From: Flavobacteriaceae bacterium PS02337
GTDB lineage: Bacteria > Bacteroidota > Bacteroidia > Flavobacteriales > Flavobacteriaceae
NCBI GenBank assembly: GCA_029959285.1
Contig: JASCOE010000017.1
Location: 1-64,000, forward strand
Direction of reading: 5' to 3'
Length of the DNA: 64,000 bases
The notes beneath the pieces are model-generated. The model made no database searches and was not told the origin of the DNA. It worked only from the letters and a program-made list of their open reading frames with translations. Both the position numbers and the translations under genes were made by a program. The stretch's first letter is position 1; each line of letters opens with the position of its first letter. Shown here piece by piece: positions 44,884 to 51,073 of the stretch.

Positions 44884-45816
44884 ATGAACAAGAACTTTTT
44901 AAGACAAGAAATCATTCAATTGAAAGCAGAAAAAAATGCTGTAATCCTAGCTCATTATTATCAAGATGAAGAAATCCAGGAAATAGCAGATTTTATCGGA
45001 GACAGTCTTGAATTATCTAAAAAAGCGCAACAGACAAATGCCGATGTTATTGTTTTTGCTGGAGTTCATTTTATGGCAGAAACGGCTAAAATTTTAAACC
45101 CAAATAAAAAAGTATTATTACCAGATTGGGAAGCTGGTTGTTCACTTGCTGAAGGCTGTAATCCTAAAGATTTTGAATTGTTCAAAAACCAGCATCCTGA
45201 TCATGTTGTTGTAACATATATTAATTGTTCTGCCGAAATAAAAGCCATGAGCGATTTGGTTTGCACTTCGGCGAATGCCAAAAAAATAATCGGATCAATT
45301 CCCGAAACACAAAAAATCATATTTGCTCCAGATGAGAATTTAGGTAATTATCTCAAAAAAGAAACCAAACGTGACTTGGTCTTATGGAAAGGCTCTTGCG
45401 TTGTGCATGAAGCCTTTTCACTAGACAAATTAATTGAAATCTATACTAAAAATCCGAATGCGAAAATAGCAGCGCATCCAGAATCTGAAAGCCATATTTT
45501 GAAAGTGGCGCATTATATCGGTTCTACTTCGGGCATTATTAATTTTATTAAAACGGATCCTGCTGCCGTTTTCATTGTGGCTACAGAAGCCGGTATCCTG
45601 CATGAGCTTTCTAAAGCGGTACCCGATAAAACGCTGATTCCGGCTCCTTCCACAGAAGACAATACTTGCGCTTGTAGTGAATGCGCTTTCATGAAAATGA
45701 ATACACTTGAAAAATTGTATTGGTGTCTTAAAAATGAAAGTCCAGAAATGAAGATCTCAGAAAAGCTTAGAATAGAAGCTTTAAAACCAATTGAAAGAAT
45801 GCTTGAATTATCATAA
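44884..45816 (+). CDS. nadA: Quinolinate synthase A
   Basis: A 310-aa [4Fe-4S] enzyme condensing iminoaspartate and dihydroxyacetone phosphate to quinolinate in NAD synthesis. Motifs are AHYYQDEEIQEIADFIGDSL, GVHFMAETAKIL, and Cys ligands at 86 (AGCSL), 172 (KGSCVVHE) and probably 267 (SECAFMKMN). Its cluster is oxygen- and NO-sensitive, which fits the neighbouring Fe-S repair gene. It starts the run behind the FNR-like site, with nadB 28 bp downstream. Confidence 0.97.
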   Translation: MNKNFLRQEIIQLKAEKNAVILAHYYQDEEIQEIADFIGDSLELSKKAQQTNADVIVFAGVHFMAETAKILNPNKKVLLPDWEAGCSLAEGCNPKDFELFKNQHPDHVVVTYINCSAEIKAMSDLVCTSANAKKIIGSIPETQKIIFAPDENLGNYLKKETKRDLVLWKGSCVVHEAFSLDKLIEIYTKNPNAKIAAHPESESHILKVAHYIGSTSGIINFIKTDPAAVFIVATEAGILHELSKAVPDKTLIPAPSTEDNTCACSECAFMKMNTLEKLYWCLKNESPEMKISEKLRIEALKPIERMLELS

Positions 45817-45844
45817 AATGCCATAACGCTAAAATCAAAATAAC

Positions 45845-47359
45845 ATGCTTAAAACAGATATATTAATCATCGGTTCTGGTATTTCGGGATTATTTTTTGC
45901 GATGAAAACGGCAAAAAAACGCCCAGATTTATCTATTGTTATAATGACCAAAGAAACTGCCAAAAACACCAATACACAATTGGCACAAGGCGGTATCGCA
46001 GTGGTAACCGACCTTATAAAAGACAGTTTTAATAAACACATTCATGATACGCTTCGTTCTGGAGGTGGTTTGTGCGATAAAGAAATTGTAAATATGGTGA
46101 TCAAACAAGCGCCAGAAAGACTTCAGGAATTAATCGAAATTGGAACTTCTTTTGACAAAAATGAAAAAGGCCAATGGGATTTAGGACTCGAAGGCGGGCA
46201 TTCGCAAAACAGAATATTACATCATAAAGATAGCTCCGGATTAGAGATTGAGCGTAAGCTACTCAAAATCATCAAAAGCATGCCTAACATTGAACTTTTA
46301 GAAAACCATCTGGTGATTGACTTGAATACAGAAGTGAAGCGGAATAAAACGATCTGTACCGGAGCCTTTTTTTATGAAAAAAAACACAATCGAATAAAAT
46401 ACATCAGAACAAGATCTGTCGTTTTAAGTACAGGCGGATGCGGTCAGCTTTTTGAAAATACAACCAATCCGAAAATTGCAACGGGAGACGGAATCGCAAT
46501 GGCAGCGCGCGCAGGTGCAGAAATTGTAGACATGCAATACATGCAGTTTCACCCAACGGCTTTGTTTACTGGAAAAGAAAATCCGCTTTTTTTGATTTCT
46601 GAAGCTGTAAGAGGTTTTGGCGCTCATATTGTAAACGAAGAAGGAAAACGATTCTTATTTAAATATGATATTCGAGGCGAATTGGCTACACGAGATATGG
46701 TTTCTAATGCCATTAGCAAAGAACTTCGATTGAGCGGAAAAGATCACGTTTACTTAGATTGCAGACATTTGAATAAAGCCGATTTCTATGCTCATTTCCC
46801 TGTAATTGCGGCGCATTGCAACGAATTAGGCATAAAACCTGAAAAAGATTTAATTCCGGTTGTTCCTGCGGCTCATTATCAATGTGGCGGAATTAAAGTA
46901 GATGAAAATGCTGCAACTGCAATTAAAAATCTTTACGCTGTTGGCGAATGCGCTAGAACTGGACTTCACGGTAAAAATCGTTTGGCTTCAAATTCACTTT
47001 TAGAAGCTTTAGTTTTTGCACATCAAGCTTCTGAAAATGTAGACAAAACCATTGCCGAATTTATTTTTTCTGATAAAATATTAATTCCGAAGTTCCCAAA
47101 AGCACATCGTGTAGATGATTATATGGCTTTTGAAATATTAAAAAAAGAATTGCAAAAAATGGTTACTTCATTTTACACTAGCGAAGAACGCGATGCTGAA
47201 TTGGTTTTTATAAAAATAAAAGAGCTTCATAATTATGCTGTTTCACTTACACAATCGCACGAAATTACCATTCCTTTTATAAAATTTTCGAACATGATTG
47301 CGACATCTTTACTTATCATAAACCAATGTAAAGAGGCAGAAAACAAACAAATGTGCTGA
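45845..47359 (+). CDS. nadB: L-aspartate oxidase
   Basis: A 504-aa FAD enzyme that oxidises L-aspartate to iminoaspartate, the substrate of NadA; it can use fumarate instead of oxygen. Visible motifs are the FAD-binding GSGISG (11-16), the loop TQLAQGGIAVV, HHKDSSGLEIE, HPTALF, and GLHGKNRLASNSLLEALVF. The order nadA-nadB in one direction supports coupled quinolinate synthesis; nadC is not in view. Confidence 0.96.
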   Translation: MLKTDILIIGSGISGLFFAMKTAKKRPDLSIVIMTKETAKNTNTQLAQGGIAVVTDLIKDSFNKHIHDTLRSGGGLCDKEIVNMVIKQAPERLQELIEIGTSFDKNEKGQWDLGLEGGHSQNRILHHKDSSGLEIERKLLKIIKSMPNIELLENHLVIDLNTEVKRNKTICTGAFFYEKKHNRIKYIRTRSVVLSTGGCGQLFENTTNPKIATGDGIAMAARAGAEIVDMQYMQFHPTALFTGKENPLFLISEAVRGFGAHIVNEEGKRFLFKYDIRGELATRDMVSNAISKELRLSGKDHVYLDCRHLNKADFYAHFPVIAAHCNELGIKPEKDLIPVVPAAHYQCGGIKVDENAATAIKNLYAVGECARTGLHGKNRLASNSLLEALVFAHQASENVDKTIAEFIFSDKILIPKFPKAHRVDDYMAFEILKKELQKMVTSFYTSEERDAELVFIKIKELHNYAVSLTQSHEITIPFIKFSNMIATSLLIINQCKEAENKQMC

Positions 47360-47388
47360 ACCAAAATTAATCTATACACTCCCCCATT

Positions 47389-48120
47389 ATGAAACTAACA
47401 AATAAAAGTACCATTGGCGAAATCGTAGCAGATGATTTCAGAACAGCTGCCGTTTTTACAAAATACCATATTGATTTTTGCTGTAAAGGATTTCGAACTA
47501 TTGAAGAAGTTTGCAAGAAAAGAGATATTGATGAAACTGTTTTGATAGAATATATTCTAGATGCAAAAAAAAATACAGCCAATCAATCTTTCGATTATAA
47601 AACTTGGCCCGTTGATGTAATTACAGATTATCTCACTAAAACGCATCATCGTTATATTAATGAAAAAGCGCCTATTATTATTCAATATCTAACCAAATTA
47701 GCTGGAGTTCATGGTGCTATTCATCCTGAATTGCATGAAATACATACTATTTTCTCAAAATCTTTTTTGGATTTAAAAGCACATTTAAATCGAGAAGAAA
47801 CAGTTGTTTTTCCTTTCATTATAAAAATGAAAAATGCCCAAAGCAAAGGAACTGATTTAGATATACCGCCTTTTTTAAGTATCGAAAATCCGATTGCAAC
47901 GTTAAAAGAAGATCATGAAGTAGAAAGTGAACGCTTTAGAAGAATCGCAGCTTTAACCAACAATTATACGCCGCCAACAGAATCTTGCAATACGTATAAA
48001 GTCGCTTTTGCAATGTTGGAAGAATTTGAAAAAGATTTAAGAAAACACATTCATTTAGAAAATAATATCCTTTTCCCGAAAGTAATTGAACTGGAAAAAA
48101 CTTTTGAAAAAGTACTGTAA
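47389..48120 (+). CDS. ric: Iron-sulfur cluster repair di-iron protein (Ric/ScdA/YtfE)
   Basis: A 243-aa protein. The N-terminal ScdA_N (DUF542) domain has STIGEIVADDFRTAAVF and the CCKG motif. A hemerythrin-like domain has His ligands in THHRYINEKAP, VHGAIHPELHEIH, DHEVESERF and HIHLENNILFP plus matching Glu. The di-iron centre repairs Fe-S clusters damaged by NO or oxidants. It lies 29 bp after nadB and 11 bp before nrdD, so it is likely co-expressed with Fe-S and radical enzymes. Confidence 0.95.
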   Translation: MKLTNKSTIGEIVADDFRTAAVFTKYHIDFCCKGFRTIEEVCKKRDIDETVLIEYILDAKKNTANQSFDYKTWPVDVITDYLTKTHHRYINEKAPIIIQYLTKLAGVHGAIHPELHEIHTIFSKSFLDLKAHLNREETVVFPFIIKMKNAQSKGTDLDIPPFLSIENPIATLKEDHEVESERFRRIAALTNNYTPPTESCNTYKVAFAMLEEFEKDLRKHIHLENNILFPKVIELEKTFEKVL

Positions 48121-48131
48121 ATATATTTAGG

Positions 48132-50255
48132 ATGGAAAAATATGTAATAAAACGCAATGGAGATTATAAGCCTTTTGAAGCTTATAAAATTCAGGATGCA
48201 ATTCAAAAAGCTTTTCAAAGCGTCAATAAACCTTTCGACAAAAAGATTTACAAAATTGTGCTTTCTGGTTTAGAAGTCAAATATTCGTGGCCTGTTGAAG
48301 AAATTCAGGATATTATTGAGCGTGTTCTTTTTGAAAATGGCTATTTCCAAACCATGCGTTCGTTTATTGTTTACCGCCATACCAGAAAATTACAGCGCGA
48401 ACATATTAACGGTTTAAATGATGACACAACATATATAGACAGTACGCAAACTGTTGAAGAATACATAAACCAGTCTGATTGGCGAATCAATGCGAATGCG
48501 AATATTTCCTATTCAAATGCGGGATTAGTCAGCAATACCGCAGGAAAAGTGATCGCCAATTATTGGCTGGATAAAATATACAATAAAGAAGAAGGTTCTG
48601 CTCATAGGAATGGCGACATACACATTCATGATTTGGATTGTCTTACCGGATACTGCGCTGGTTGGAGCCTGCGAGTGCTATTAAATGAAGGTTTTAATGG
48701 CGTTCGAGGACGTGTCGAGAGCAGACCTCCTTCTCATTTTAGAGAAGCTTTGGGGCAAATGGCTAATTTCTTGGGAATTTTACAAAGCGAATGGGCTGGC
48801 GCTCAAGCTTTCAGTTCTTTTGATACTTATCTGGCGCCTTATGTTTTTAAAGATCAGCTTTCTTACGAAGAAGTTTTAAAAGCAATTAGAAGTTTTGTTT
48901 ATAATTTGAATGTGCCTGCGCGTTGGGGACAATCGCCTTTTACGAATATTACATTAGATTGGAATGTTCCAGAAGATTTGAAAGAACAAATTCCGACTCA
49001 AAATAACGAACATTTATTCTCCAAAATAAAAGATAAAAATTTAGTTGATGAAGCTAAAAAAAGAGGCGTTGAAAAACTAGTCGATTTAAAATATGCCGAT
49101 TTTCAGAAAGAAATGAATCTGATCAATAAAGCGTATTATACAATTATGACGGAAGGCGATGCCAACGGACAGCCGTTTACGTTTCCGATTCCGACCGTGA
49201 ATATTACGGAAGATTTTGATTGGAATGGAGAAAATGTTGATTTGTTATTTGAAAATACAGCCAAAATCGGTTCGTCTTATTTTCAGAATTTTATTGGAAG
49301 CCAATATATTTTGGATGAAAAAGGAAATCGAATTGAAAATCCAGAAGCGTACAAACCAAATGCAGTTAGAAGTATGTGCTGCCGATTGCAACTCGATTTG
49401 AGAGAATTATTAAAACGAGGAAACGGACTTTTTGGAAGTGCAGAAATGACGGGAAGTATTGGCGTTGTTACGATTAATATGGCACGTTTGGGTTATTTGC
49501 ACAGAGGAAATATCATCAATTTGTTTGCTCATTTAGATGAATTACTAAAAATCGCTAAATCGACTTTAGAAAAGAAAAGAGTTTTTATTCAGCAAATGTA
49601 TGATCGTGGATTGTATCCGTATACGAAACGTTACTTAGAACATTTTAGAAATCATTTTTCGACAATTGGCGTAAACGGAATGAACGAAATGGTGATTAAT
49701 TTTTCTGAGGGAAAACAGAATATTACGTGCAGTTCGGGAATTCATTTTGCTACTGAAATTCTAGATCATATTCGATTAAGAATGAAAGAATTTCAAGAAG
49801 AAACGGGAAATCTTTACAATCTAGAAGCAACTCCTGCCGAAGGAACAACGTATCGTTTTGCGAAAGAAGATAAAAAGCGTTTTCCAGAGATTTTGCAAGC
49901 GGGGCAAAACGAGAATATTTATTATACCAATAGTTCACAAATTCCGGTAGATTATACCGATGATCCTTTTGAGGCTTTGCTGCTTCAAGACGAATTGCAA
50001 TGCAAATATACTGGCGGTACAGTTTTGCATCTTTATATGAGAGAAAAAATAAGCAGTCCAGAAGCTTGTAAAAACTTCGTAAAGAAAGTTTTAACCAACT
50101 TTAAATTGCCTTACATAACCGTAACACCAATTTTCAGCATTTGCCCAATTCATGGTTATCTGAATGGAGAACATGAATATTGTCCGAAATGTGACGAAAT
50201 TTTACTTCAAAAAAACAATCAAAAACACTTGGCTTATGAAAACAAAAACGCATAA
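48132..50255 (+). CDS. nrdD: Class III (anaerobic) ribonucleoside-triphosphate reductase, catalytic part without the glycyl-radical site
   Basis: A 707-aa protein. The N-terminal ATP-cone (YVIKRNGDYKPFEAYKIQDA) is followed by the catalytic barrel with DCLTGYCAGWSLRVLLNEG and the C-terminal Zn site (CPIHGYLNGEHEYCPKC, three Cys and one His). It then ends at a TAA (50253-50255) before the glycyl-radical loop found at this point in all usual NrdD. That loop is encoded directly after, in the +1 frame (50236-50403). A run of seven A at 50209-50215 could be an indel hotspot. This is either a natural two-polypeptide enzyme or a frameshift. Confidence 0.92.
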   Translation: MEKYVIKRNGDYKPFEAYKIQDAIQKAFQSVNKPFDKKIYKIVLSGLEVKYSWPVEEIQDIIERVLFENGYFQTMRSFIVYRHTRKLQREHINGLNDDTTYIDSTQTVEEYINQSDWRINANANISYSNAGLVSNTAGKVIANYWLDKIYNKEEGSAHRNGDIHIHDLDCLTGYCAGWSLRVLLNEGFNGVRGRVESRPPSHFREALGQMANFLGILQSEWAGAQAFSSFDTYLAPYVFKDQLSYEEVLKAIRSFVYNLNVPARWGQSPFTNITLDWNVPEDLKEQIPTQNNEHLFSKIKDKNLVDEAKKRGVEKLVDLKYADFQKEMNLINKAYYTIMTEGDANGQPFTFPIPTVNITEDFDWNGENVDLLFENTAKIGSSYFQNFIGSQYILDEKGNRIENPEAYKPNAVRSMCCRLQLDLRELLKRGNGLFGSAEMTGSIGVVTINMARLGYLHRGNIINLFAHLDELLKIAKSTLEKKRVFIQQMYDRGLYPYTKRYLEHFRNHFSTIGVNGMNEMVINFSEGKQNITCSSGIHFATEILDHIRLRMKEFQEETGNLYNLEATPAEGTTYRFAKEDKKRFPEILQAGQNENIYYTNSSQIPVDYTDDPFEALLLQDELQCKYTGGTVLHLYMREKISSPEACKNFVKKVLTNFKLPYITVTPIFSICPIHGYLNGEHEYCPKCDEILLQKNNQKHLAYENKNA

Positions 50256-50403
50256 AGTTTTAGCAGAACACAAAAACGAAAGAAGCAAATGTTTGGTTTA
50301 TACCCGCGTAATGGGATATCACAGACCTGTAGAAAGTTTTAATATTGGAAAAAAAGGTGAACATCAACAACGCAAACATTTCGAAGAAACCATTATCTAC
50401 TAA
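50236..50403 (+). CDS. Separate glycyl-radical segment of class III ribonucleotide reductase
   Basis: The ATG at 50236 opens a 55-aa frame overlapping the nrdD end by 20 bases. It holds the class III radical signature YTRVMGYHRP (radical Gly27) and the downstream SFNIGKKGEHQQRKHF that normally ends NrdD. NrdG would abstract a hydrogen from this Gly to start catalysis. As a separate peptide it would have to dock into the NrdD barrel, as the YfiD spare domain does for pyruvate formate-lyase. If the split is a frameshift, this is simply the NrdD tail. Confidence 0.75.
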   Translation: MKTKTHKVLAEHKNERSKCLVYTRVMGYHRPVESFNIGKKGEHQQRKHFEETIIY

Positions 50404-51073
50404 AGGAATATTTAGCCTCACGCCTTTTACTTTATTAAATTATCCGCATAAAACGGCCTGCATAGTGTGGTTTGCGGGCTGTAACATGCGGTGTTTATAC
50501 TGCTACAATCCAGAAATTGTTTTAGGAAAAGGAAAAATAGATTTTCAAACTGTTTTGAATTTTCTAAAAACACGTAAAGGATTATTGGACGGAGTAGTTT
50601 TAAGTGGCGGCGAATGTACTTTACACCATAAAATAATTGATTTTATAAAAGAAATCAAAGCAATGGGATTTGCAGTCAAAATTGACACCAACGGTTCCAA
50701 TCCTAAAATATTGAATAGCCTGATTCGTAATCGATTAATTGATTATGTCGCGTTAGATTATAAAAGTCTTCCTCATACCTTTAAAAAACTAACGCAATCA
50801 GGCTTATTTTCAGAATTTGAAGAAAGTCTAAAACTTTTAATTCAGTCAGATATTCCGTTTGAAGTTCGCACGACTTTTCATTCTTCTTTAATTTCAGAAT
50901 CAGATTTTGTGCAAATGATTCGATATTTAGAAACTCAAAATTTTGAAGGAAATTATTATGTTCAGCATTTTATTAATAATGTACCAACGCTTTCAAAACT
51001 AGACAGTTCGAATAAAGAAATACAATTTAAAGACTTTTCAACTTCAAAAATAAAAGTTGTTTTTAGAGAGTAA
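50345..51073 (+). CDS. nrdG: Anaerobic ribonucleotide reductase activating protein (radical SAM)
   Basis: A protein of up to 242 aa with the radical-SAM cluster motif CNMRCLYC (Cx3CxxC) and VVLSGGECTLHHK (SAM-binding GGE). It has the NrdG/pyruvate-formate-lyase-activase N-terminus FTLLNYPHKTACIVWFAGC. It generates the glycyl radical on the peptide just upstream. No ATG precedes the motif in frame: the candidates are TTG 50345 and GTG 50357, both inside the glycyl-radical frame. The three consecutive genes thus use three successive frames. Confidence 0.92.
   Translation: MEKKVNINNANISKKPLSTKGIFSLTPFTLLNYPHKTACIVWFAGCNMRCLYCYNPEIVLGKGKIDFQTVLNFLKTRKGLLDGVVLSGGECTLHHKIIDFIKEIKAMGFAVKIDTNGSNPKILNSLIRNRLIDYVALDYKSLPHTFKKLTQSGLFSEFEESLKLLIQSDIPFEVRTTFHSSLISESDFVQMIRYLETQNFEGNYYVQHFINNVPTLSKLDSSNKEIQFKDFSTSKIKVVFRE

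Follow-up and report, generated by a model that had tools for sequence, protein, structure and literature searches.

The window, a 64,000-nucleotide stretch of a Flavobacteriaceae genome, carries on its plus strand a class III ribonucleotide reductase gene that ends before its glycyl-radical loop. The NrdD core (48132..50255, plus strand) encodes 707 aa comprising an ATP-cone (residues 3-86), a barrel and a zinc site, and no glycyl-radical loop. In profile searches it matched PF03477 and positions 2-528 of the 562 in PF13597, giving the combination of NRDD barrel and ATP-cone that marks a class III NrdD, and it scored 422 bits against TIGR02487 (cut-off 326). Alignment with the NrdD of P. copri pairs Cys175 (codon 48654..48656, plus strand) with Cys171 on the first barrel strand, and Cys417 (codon 49380..49382, plus strand) with the thiyl-radical Cys416; it also places HIHD (residues 164-167) at the HxHD motif and NANAN (120-124) at the NxN flap. 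The zinc motif CPIHGYLNGEHEYCPKC (50142..50192, plus strand; residues 671-687), a predicted metal site of the form CPIH...CPKC, stays on the core, ahead of the radical loop. As originally predicted, the core ends at 50255, past this site, its stop lying 20 residues after CPKC.

The loop is found instead on a 55-aa ORF (50236..50403, plus strand), for which the sequence bears out every predicted feature: its own ATG, the +1 frame, a 20-nt overlap with the core and the RVMGY loop, which aligns with the P. copri loop containing Gly711. The putative radical glycine is Gly27 of the small protein (codon 50314..50316, plus strand). Overlapping this ORF in turn is the gene for the radical SAM activase NrdG (50357..51073, plus strand), which starts at GTG 50357 or TTG 50345 and matches TIGR02495 (NrdG2) at 194 bits (cut-off 131). 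The gene upstream, outside the enzyme, encodes a RIC/ScdA iron-sulfur cluster repair di-iron protein (47389..48120, plus strand; TIGR03652, 219 bits, cut-off 205). Together with nadA and nadB it occupies 44884-48120, immediately 5' of nrdD on the same strand, a neighborhood that may be suited to changing levels of oxygen or nitric oxide. A second NrdD in the same genome (contig C15, 8053-10140, minus strand) has a core 80% identical to that of the window and is likewise split, with its own small ORF.

The Pfam NRDD family is thus divided between the two ORFs: the small one matches positions 530-562 of PF13597 (E 2.9e-7; 30 bits, gathering score 26.2), the last 33 positions and those missing from the core. 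Against family models at E 0.001, the small ORF matched NRDD or NrdD-type models and no other family. The PFL-type radical domain that typifies GrcA/YfiD was among the matches not found at this threshold, in profile libraries that presumably contain PFL-type models. A sequence search of the PDB with the small ORF alone gave no match up to E 10. The likeness to YfiD drawn in the original prediction holds as an analogy; in sequence, however, the small ORF is a member of the NRDD family.

Conservation of the split among relatives

We searched for the core in overlapping sets of 60 relatives and of 300 genus, 199 family, 295 class and 296 phylum genomes; 111 of the 300 genus genomes had a match. 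The 3' end was examined in 115 loci from 113 genomes, covering the genus itself, two further genera in its family and five further families in its class. This set leaves out weak matches (mostly to the ATP-cone only, or of low identity over short stretches), distant NrdDs found at class and phylum level, and fragments at contig ends that lack the 3' end (G270, G244, G275:C51, G031:C290). In 114 of the 115 loci the core stops downstream of the zinc site and is accompanied by a distinct small ORF that has an ATG; the ordinary class III trait, a radical glycine loop on the same polypeptide, is absent from them. Comparison with related nrdD loci was the check set beforehand, and it yielded no fused or uninterrupted NrdD among the 115, the remaining locus (L136) meeting a contig end 31 nt past the core stop. 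The preference for a genuine split was therefore well placed.

The arrangement of the two ORFs varies. In 61 loci, that of the window among them, the two ORFs overlap, and the small one is then always in the +1 frame; in the other 53 it lies 12-631 nt away, in frames 0, 1 and 2 in 25, 19 and 9 loci, respectively. The 631-nt spacer belongs to L044 (G416). Two loci (L042 and L137, in G316 and G162) contain, between the core and an intact small ORF, a duplication-made 66-aa chimera of the start of the small protein and a copy of the zinc region. A search of 23 kin genomes with the small ORF found 25 copies, one beside each core, and neither a fused copy nor any other NrdD-type radical domain in any of the 23. 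Like the genome of the window, G233 has two NrdD copies. Seven genus genomes (G074, G250, G203, G169, G088, G249 and G293) have stops inside the core match and are counted among the loci, where only the 3' end was read; most of these stops may reflect alignment running past the core stop, and G293, with four, looks broken.

The +1 frame in the window is already open from an earlier ATG at 50164, which would give a protein of 79 aa. With a script that chose the ATG nearest to 26 codons before the loop, an ATG was found near the equivalent place in all 114 small ORFs, and in 81 of these it is the sole ATG upstream of the loop in the open frame; this favors 50236 as the start. Purifying selection on the small ORF is strong: its conserved block has a pN/pS of 0.067 (1500 pairs from 109 distinct blocks), whereas the two alternative frames give 2.1 and 3.9, and third positions carry 1022 of the 1338 non-consensus bases. 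Over the 114 loci the pattern reads R.kCLVYTRVMGYHRPvESFNiGKkGEH.qR.hF, where capitals are invariant and small letters are conserved in at least 90%. Judged from sequence, by its match to the end of NRDD and its recurrence in 114 of 115 loci (that is, in each with enough sequence past the core), the small ORF is beyond chance.

These data bear on the other ways in which the locus could be read. Programmed +1 frameshifting or stop read-through, fusing both ORFs into one chain, would suit the window and the 60 other overlapping loci, where the +1 frame is kept throughout. However, an ATG lies near the same place in every small ORF, gapped pairs occur in other phyla too, and the joinable overlap expected of a programmed +1 frameshift gene is lacking in 53 of the 114 loci. 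Because these 53 have no overlap in any frame, neither frameshifting, read-through nor an indel can explain the split, and we consider the +1 recoding site proposed for the window extremely improbable. A sequencing error or a recent disabling mutation of nrdD had also been suggested, at a run of seven A residues (50209..50215, plus strand) that does precede the junction. Yet the structure is the same in 113 genomes, including both copies in the genome of the window, and the small ORF is under purifying selection. Since 113 genomes would not share such an error, we give it almost no credence; judging by relatives, the run is no indel site, and a frameshift that destroys anaerobic dNTP synthesis is contradicted by the same recurrence.

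Two further readings assign the small protein another role. It might be a repair part only, with the core obtaining its radical from a different glycyl-radical donor or by some other mechanism. The orphan copies that viruses and plasmids carry are in keeping with this, as are the genomes, described below, that combine a stand-alone domain with a match in a long fused frame (13 of 22), but the core is wholly without a loop, shares an operon with the nrdG gene and had no other NrdD-type radical domain available to it in the 23 kin genomes searched; we regard this reading as very unlikely. Alternatively, the small protein could serve another glycyl-radical enzyme such as pyruvate formate-lyase, leaving the core a non-catalytic remnant. 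YfiD is such a protein for pyruvate formate-lyase, as described in excerpts of PMC8683613, an indirect argument in favor; against it, the small ORF matches NrdD-type models only, an nrdD core precedes it in all 114 loci, and the catalytic residues are kept in the window core, so that we attach hardly any weight to it. We regard the split of NrdD as real.

Split, spare and orphan domains in other lineages

To look beyond the phylum, we scanned named genomes with a fused relative as the query and read the best 80 of 590 loci together with eight phylum-level loci. Among these 88, 75 were fused (67 by script and eight by eye, the core motif of the script having missed the latter), 10 were split at the same junction, one had both forms, and two were left without a call, L222 ending at a contig edge and L219 having a degraded loop. 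The 10 split loci comprise four from Elusimicrobia and one each from Desulfuromonadales (on a contig labelled geobacteraceae), Muiribacteriota, Thermodesulfobacteriota, Falkowbacteria, Moraniibacteriota and an unplaced bacterium. Rumen or reindeer samples figure in the titles of two of the four split Elusimicrobia. The core occurs in 116 of the 136 genomes in the order to which the Desulfuromonadales genome belongs, and a separate domain of about 44-60 residues was present in 28 of the 30 loci read from these; the core end of L281, one of the 28, is masked, L291 has no domain in the locus, and L300 has no core motif by script. Second NrdDs of 51-60% identity in this order lie outside the 30 loci read.

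Plasmids carry the split as well. The small ORF matched 28 plasmid records, and the 16 that we opened proved to be split (11), fused (3) or orphan (2). The split form occurs on plasmids of Cupriavidus necator H16 (pHG1), C. metallidurans CH34, Bradyrhizobium diazoefficiens, Paracoccus denitrificans, Sulfuricurvum kujiense, Aquabacterium olei, Sulfuricystis, Shinella, Cereibacter, Azospira and Thiothrix; in Thiothrix (L316) even the core appears to be interrupted. The Sulfuricurvum core is the nearest among them, at 70.6%. Denitrification genes adjoin two of these loci, norB beside nrdD of pHG1 and napA beside that of Sulfuricurvum. Two fused loci, L317 and L318, on plasmids of Acidiphilium multivorum and Acidithiobacillus ferrooxidans, have closely similar nrdD followed by nrdG with transposase genes nearby, and a recent transfer is possible.

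On pHG1 (NC_005241) nrdD, a small nrdD and nrdG show the same split as the window: a core of 676 aa, with a computed mass of 76.19 kDa, a 66-aa radical domain, and nrdG. The abstract of Siedow et al. 1999 on pHG1 reportedly gives an NrdD of 76.2 kDa. RefSeq annotates the pHG1 pair as two separate reductase products, and it gives the name nrdD to several plasmid small genes. A published passage on C. necator H16 makes it very likely that an enzyme of split arrangement works in vivo, and genetic evidence for one may already have been obtained in C. necator without being recognized. In that passage, Rmet_5137 and Rmet_5139 are listed as NrdD and NrdG of CH34 and 5138 is left without a name; we take Rmet_5138 to be the candidate small gene of CH34. 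We found no text describing the pHG1 enzyme as two polypeptides, Siedow 1999 lying outside the scope of that search.

We mapped the split and fused labels onto a FastTree phylogeny of 125 cores, which required eight changes, six of them forced by starred branches; a 43-row IQ-TREE quick tree (19 split, 24 fused) gave the same eight and six. Placing all split genes in one clade cost 802 log-likelihood units (p-AU 5e-46; 43 rows) and was rejected, by an AU test that compares two trees, is based on the quick tree and is strictly valid only when the group has been specified in advance. One clade unites the relatives of the window with Sulfuricurvum and the proteobacterial plasmids. Because fused genes of Acidiphilium, Acidithiobacillus and Actinomyces sit inside it, re-fusion and repeated splitting are indistinguishable by counts of changes. 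The Desulfuromonadales rows group with Muiribacteriota, the split Elusimicrobia rows have a fused sister (support 88), and split and fused forms are mixed among the Patescibacteria-like rows.

Some Patescibacteria keep a fused NrdD and a spare radical domain. In a Moranbacteria locus (L238), a fused NrdD is followed by an additional stand-alone domain that has a zinc ribbon of its own. In the class of this genome 96 of 285 genomes matched; 22 have a stand-alone zinc-ribbon domain (G1531, a weak 27% match with a stop, being excluded), and of these 22, 13 have a further match, in a long fused frame. The separate domain lies beside a fused NrdD in seven of the 22 and beside a loop-less core in eight, and the stretch fetched contains no core in the other seven. 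Elsewhere, in L417-L423, the break is further upstream, and the last 150-170 residues, with zinc site and radical domain, form their own ORF, which in L417 and in L418 is present as two like copies; this break may reflect an intron, an intein, a repeat in the assembly or a different type of split.

The domain also occurs alone. Of 147 genomes in the class that includes the Elusimicrobia genome, 55 matched, 17 of them more than once, and none of the 12 extra copies fetched had a core within the stretch; endolysin genes lie near two. Among 25 loci on viral contigs, 23 have an intact domain, one is degenerate (L363) and one broken (L386); a search with controls, covering the fetched stretches, found no core in any of the 25, and terminase, portal or head genes adjoin two copies (L365, L362). 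Nor was a core found in any of 28 viral or plasmid records searched whole, a search that had no positive control and in which viral records may be fragments; these 28 include ANMV-1 virus and the Allochromatium plasmids pALVIN01 and pAt1. On the plasmids of A. vinosum (pALVIN01, L306) and A. tepidum (pAt1, L319) a small nrdD is present, and no core was found on either plasmid searched. Of nine phage records, three were opened: L307 and L309 are fused and L308, from ANMV-1 virus (KP703175), is an orphan. The 144-aa product of L308 (3180-3614) is annotated as an anaerobic ribonucleoside triphosphate reductase and consists of a zinc-ribbon-like part and the radical domain only. The small protein of the window matches positions 108-156 of the PHROG profile phrog_4132 at E 5e-10; the function of phrog_4132 is listed as unknown, and this family may be one of NrdD radical domains.

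A probable two-polypeptide reductase and its counterparts

We conclude with high confidence that the locus encodes a class III ribonucleotide reductase of two polypeptides, with the radical part acting in trans. Gene structure and its conservation, selection on the small ORF, the presence of the other catalytic residues, the pairing of one small ORF with each core and no fused copy in the 23 genomes searched, and recurrence in lineages that do not make up one clade are shown directly. Beyond these, we infer that the small protein acts in trans, and that it binds the core, is activated by NrdG and transfers its radical in trans. On this reading the core has sites for substrate and effectors in addition to the ATP-cone, thiyl cysteine and zinc site, and the 55-aa protein has the glycyl-radical loop. 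The small protein presumably docks on the barrel, at the seat of the C-terminal domain in an ordinary NrdD. The activase from the next gene of the overlapping operon, NrdG, would generate the radical on Gly27; this residue would then abstract a hydrogen from Cys417, and nucleotide reduction would begin. Anaerobic, glycyl-radical-dependent dNTP formation by the window enzyme is a prediction from sequence. The alignment behind a model of the joined chain consisted of naturally fused relatives, so that the model partly presupposes docking at the usual site; residues 401-440, around the thiyl cysteine, were poorly predicted (pLDDT 37-63), and the glycine-cysteine geometry therefore cannot be read from the model.

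The NrdD/NrdG systems of P. copri, T4, T. maritima and S. thermophilus share with the window an ATP-cone, the barrel, the thiyl and strand-1 cysteines, HxHD, the NxN flap, the zinc motif, an RVxGY loop and an adjacent NrdG. They differ in that their loop lies at the C-terminus of NrdD, whereas that of the window is on its own polypeptide. Small separate proteins with a glycyl-radical loop are known as spare parts of pyruvate formate-lyase, namely YfiD/GrcA of E. coli and Y06I of phage T4, with phage copies here too; in the excerpts of PMC8683613 that describe them, validated spare parts are confined to pyruvate formate-lyase and others are deemed possible. YfiD, however, supplements a fused enzyme of a different family (PMC8683613, in part), whereas the window core is without any loop; the closer parallel to YfiD is offered by Patescibacteria with a fused and a separate domain. 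NrdJa/NrdJb of Pseudomonas aeruginosa is likewise a reductase of two polypeptides from adjacent genes, and excerpts of PMC4520616 call it the only split ribonucleotide reductase in a non-viral organism; it is a B12-dependent class II enzyme, though, and its small part mediates disulfide exchange, not a radical. A search of titles and the starts of abstracts returned neither a split class III enzyme nor a class III spare part; subscription papers fell outside its scope, and a mention elsewhere is possible. The portions consulted of PMC9669993, PMC9531940, PMC3019208 and PMC12288474 do not mention a split NrdD. As far as we found, the small gene is known to annotation, yet apparently undescribed as part of an enzyme.

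The radical domain as a possible replaceable part

By analogy, there is perhaps an even chance that the radical domain is a separable, exchangeable cartridge: repeatedly cut loose at the same linker, kept as a spare beside the fused enzyme in some Patescibacteria, and traveling alone on viruses and plasmids, where it would refresh or sustain the anaerobic DNA-precursor supply of the host after oxygen or turnover destroys the radical peptide. This idea draws on the analogy with YfiD, on the orphan copies and on the cutting of NrdD by oxygen at the radical glycine, which is described in excerpts of PMC3019208. More speculatively, when oxygen cuts the chain at that glycine, the 55-aa piece alone would be lost and could be replaced. 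Splits would then be expected where oxygen is met, with which the denitrification neighbors norB and napA agree. Against it, the split lineages include rumen bacteria, and oxygen-tolerant bacteria with a fused NrdD, such as E. coli, exist; any link between splitting and exposure to oxygen is conjectural.

In known class III enzymes the radical and the active site are on one chain, and a cut by oxygen hence ends the enzyme. A separate radical subunit, if confirmed, could make the enzyme repairable, and this would answer a question posed in PMC8683613, whether glycyl-radical enzymes besides pyruvate formate-lyase have spare parts. As a natural two-part system, the window enzyme makes the supply of a radical in trans testable. 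The findings also suggest a function for the viral family phrog_4132 and correct the annotation of single small "nrdD" genes, which would be parts of an enzyme, not fragments.
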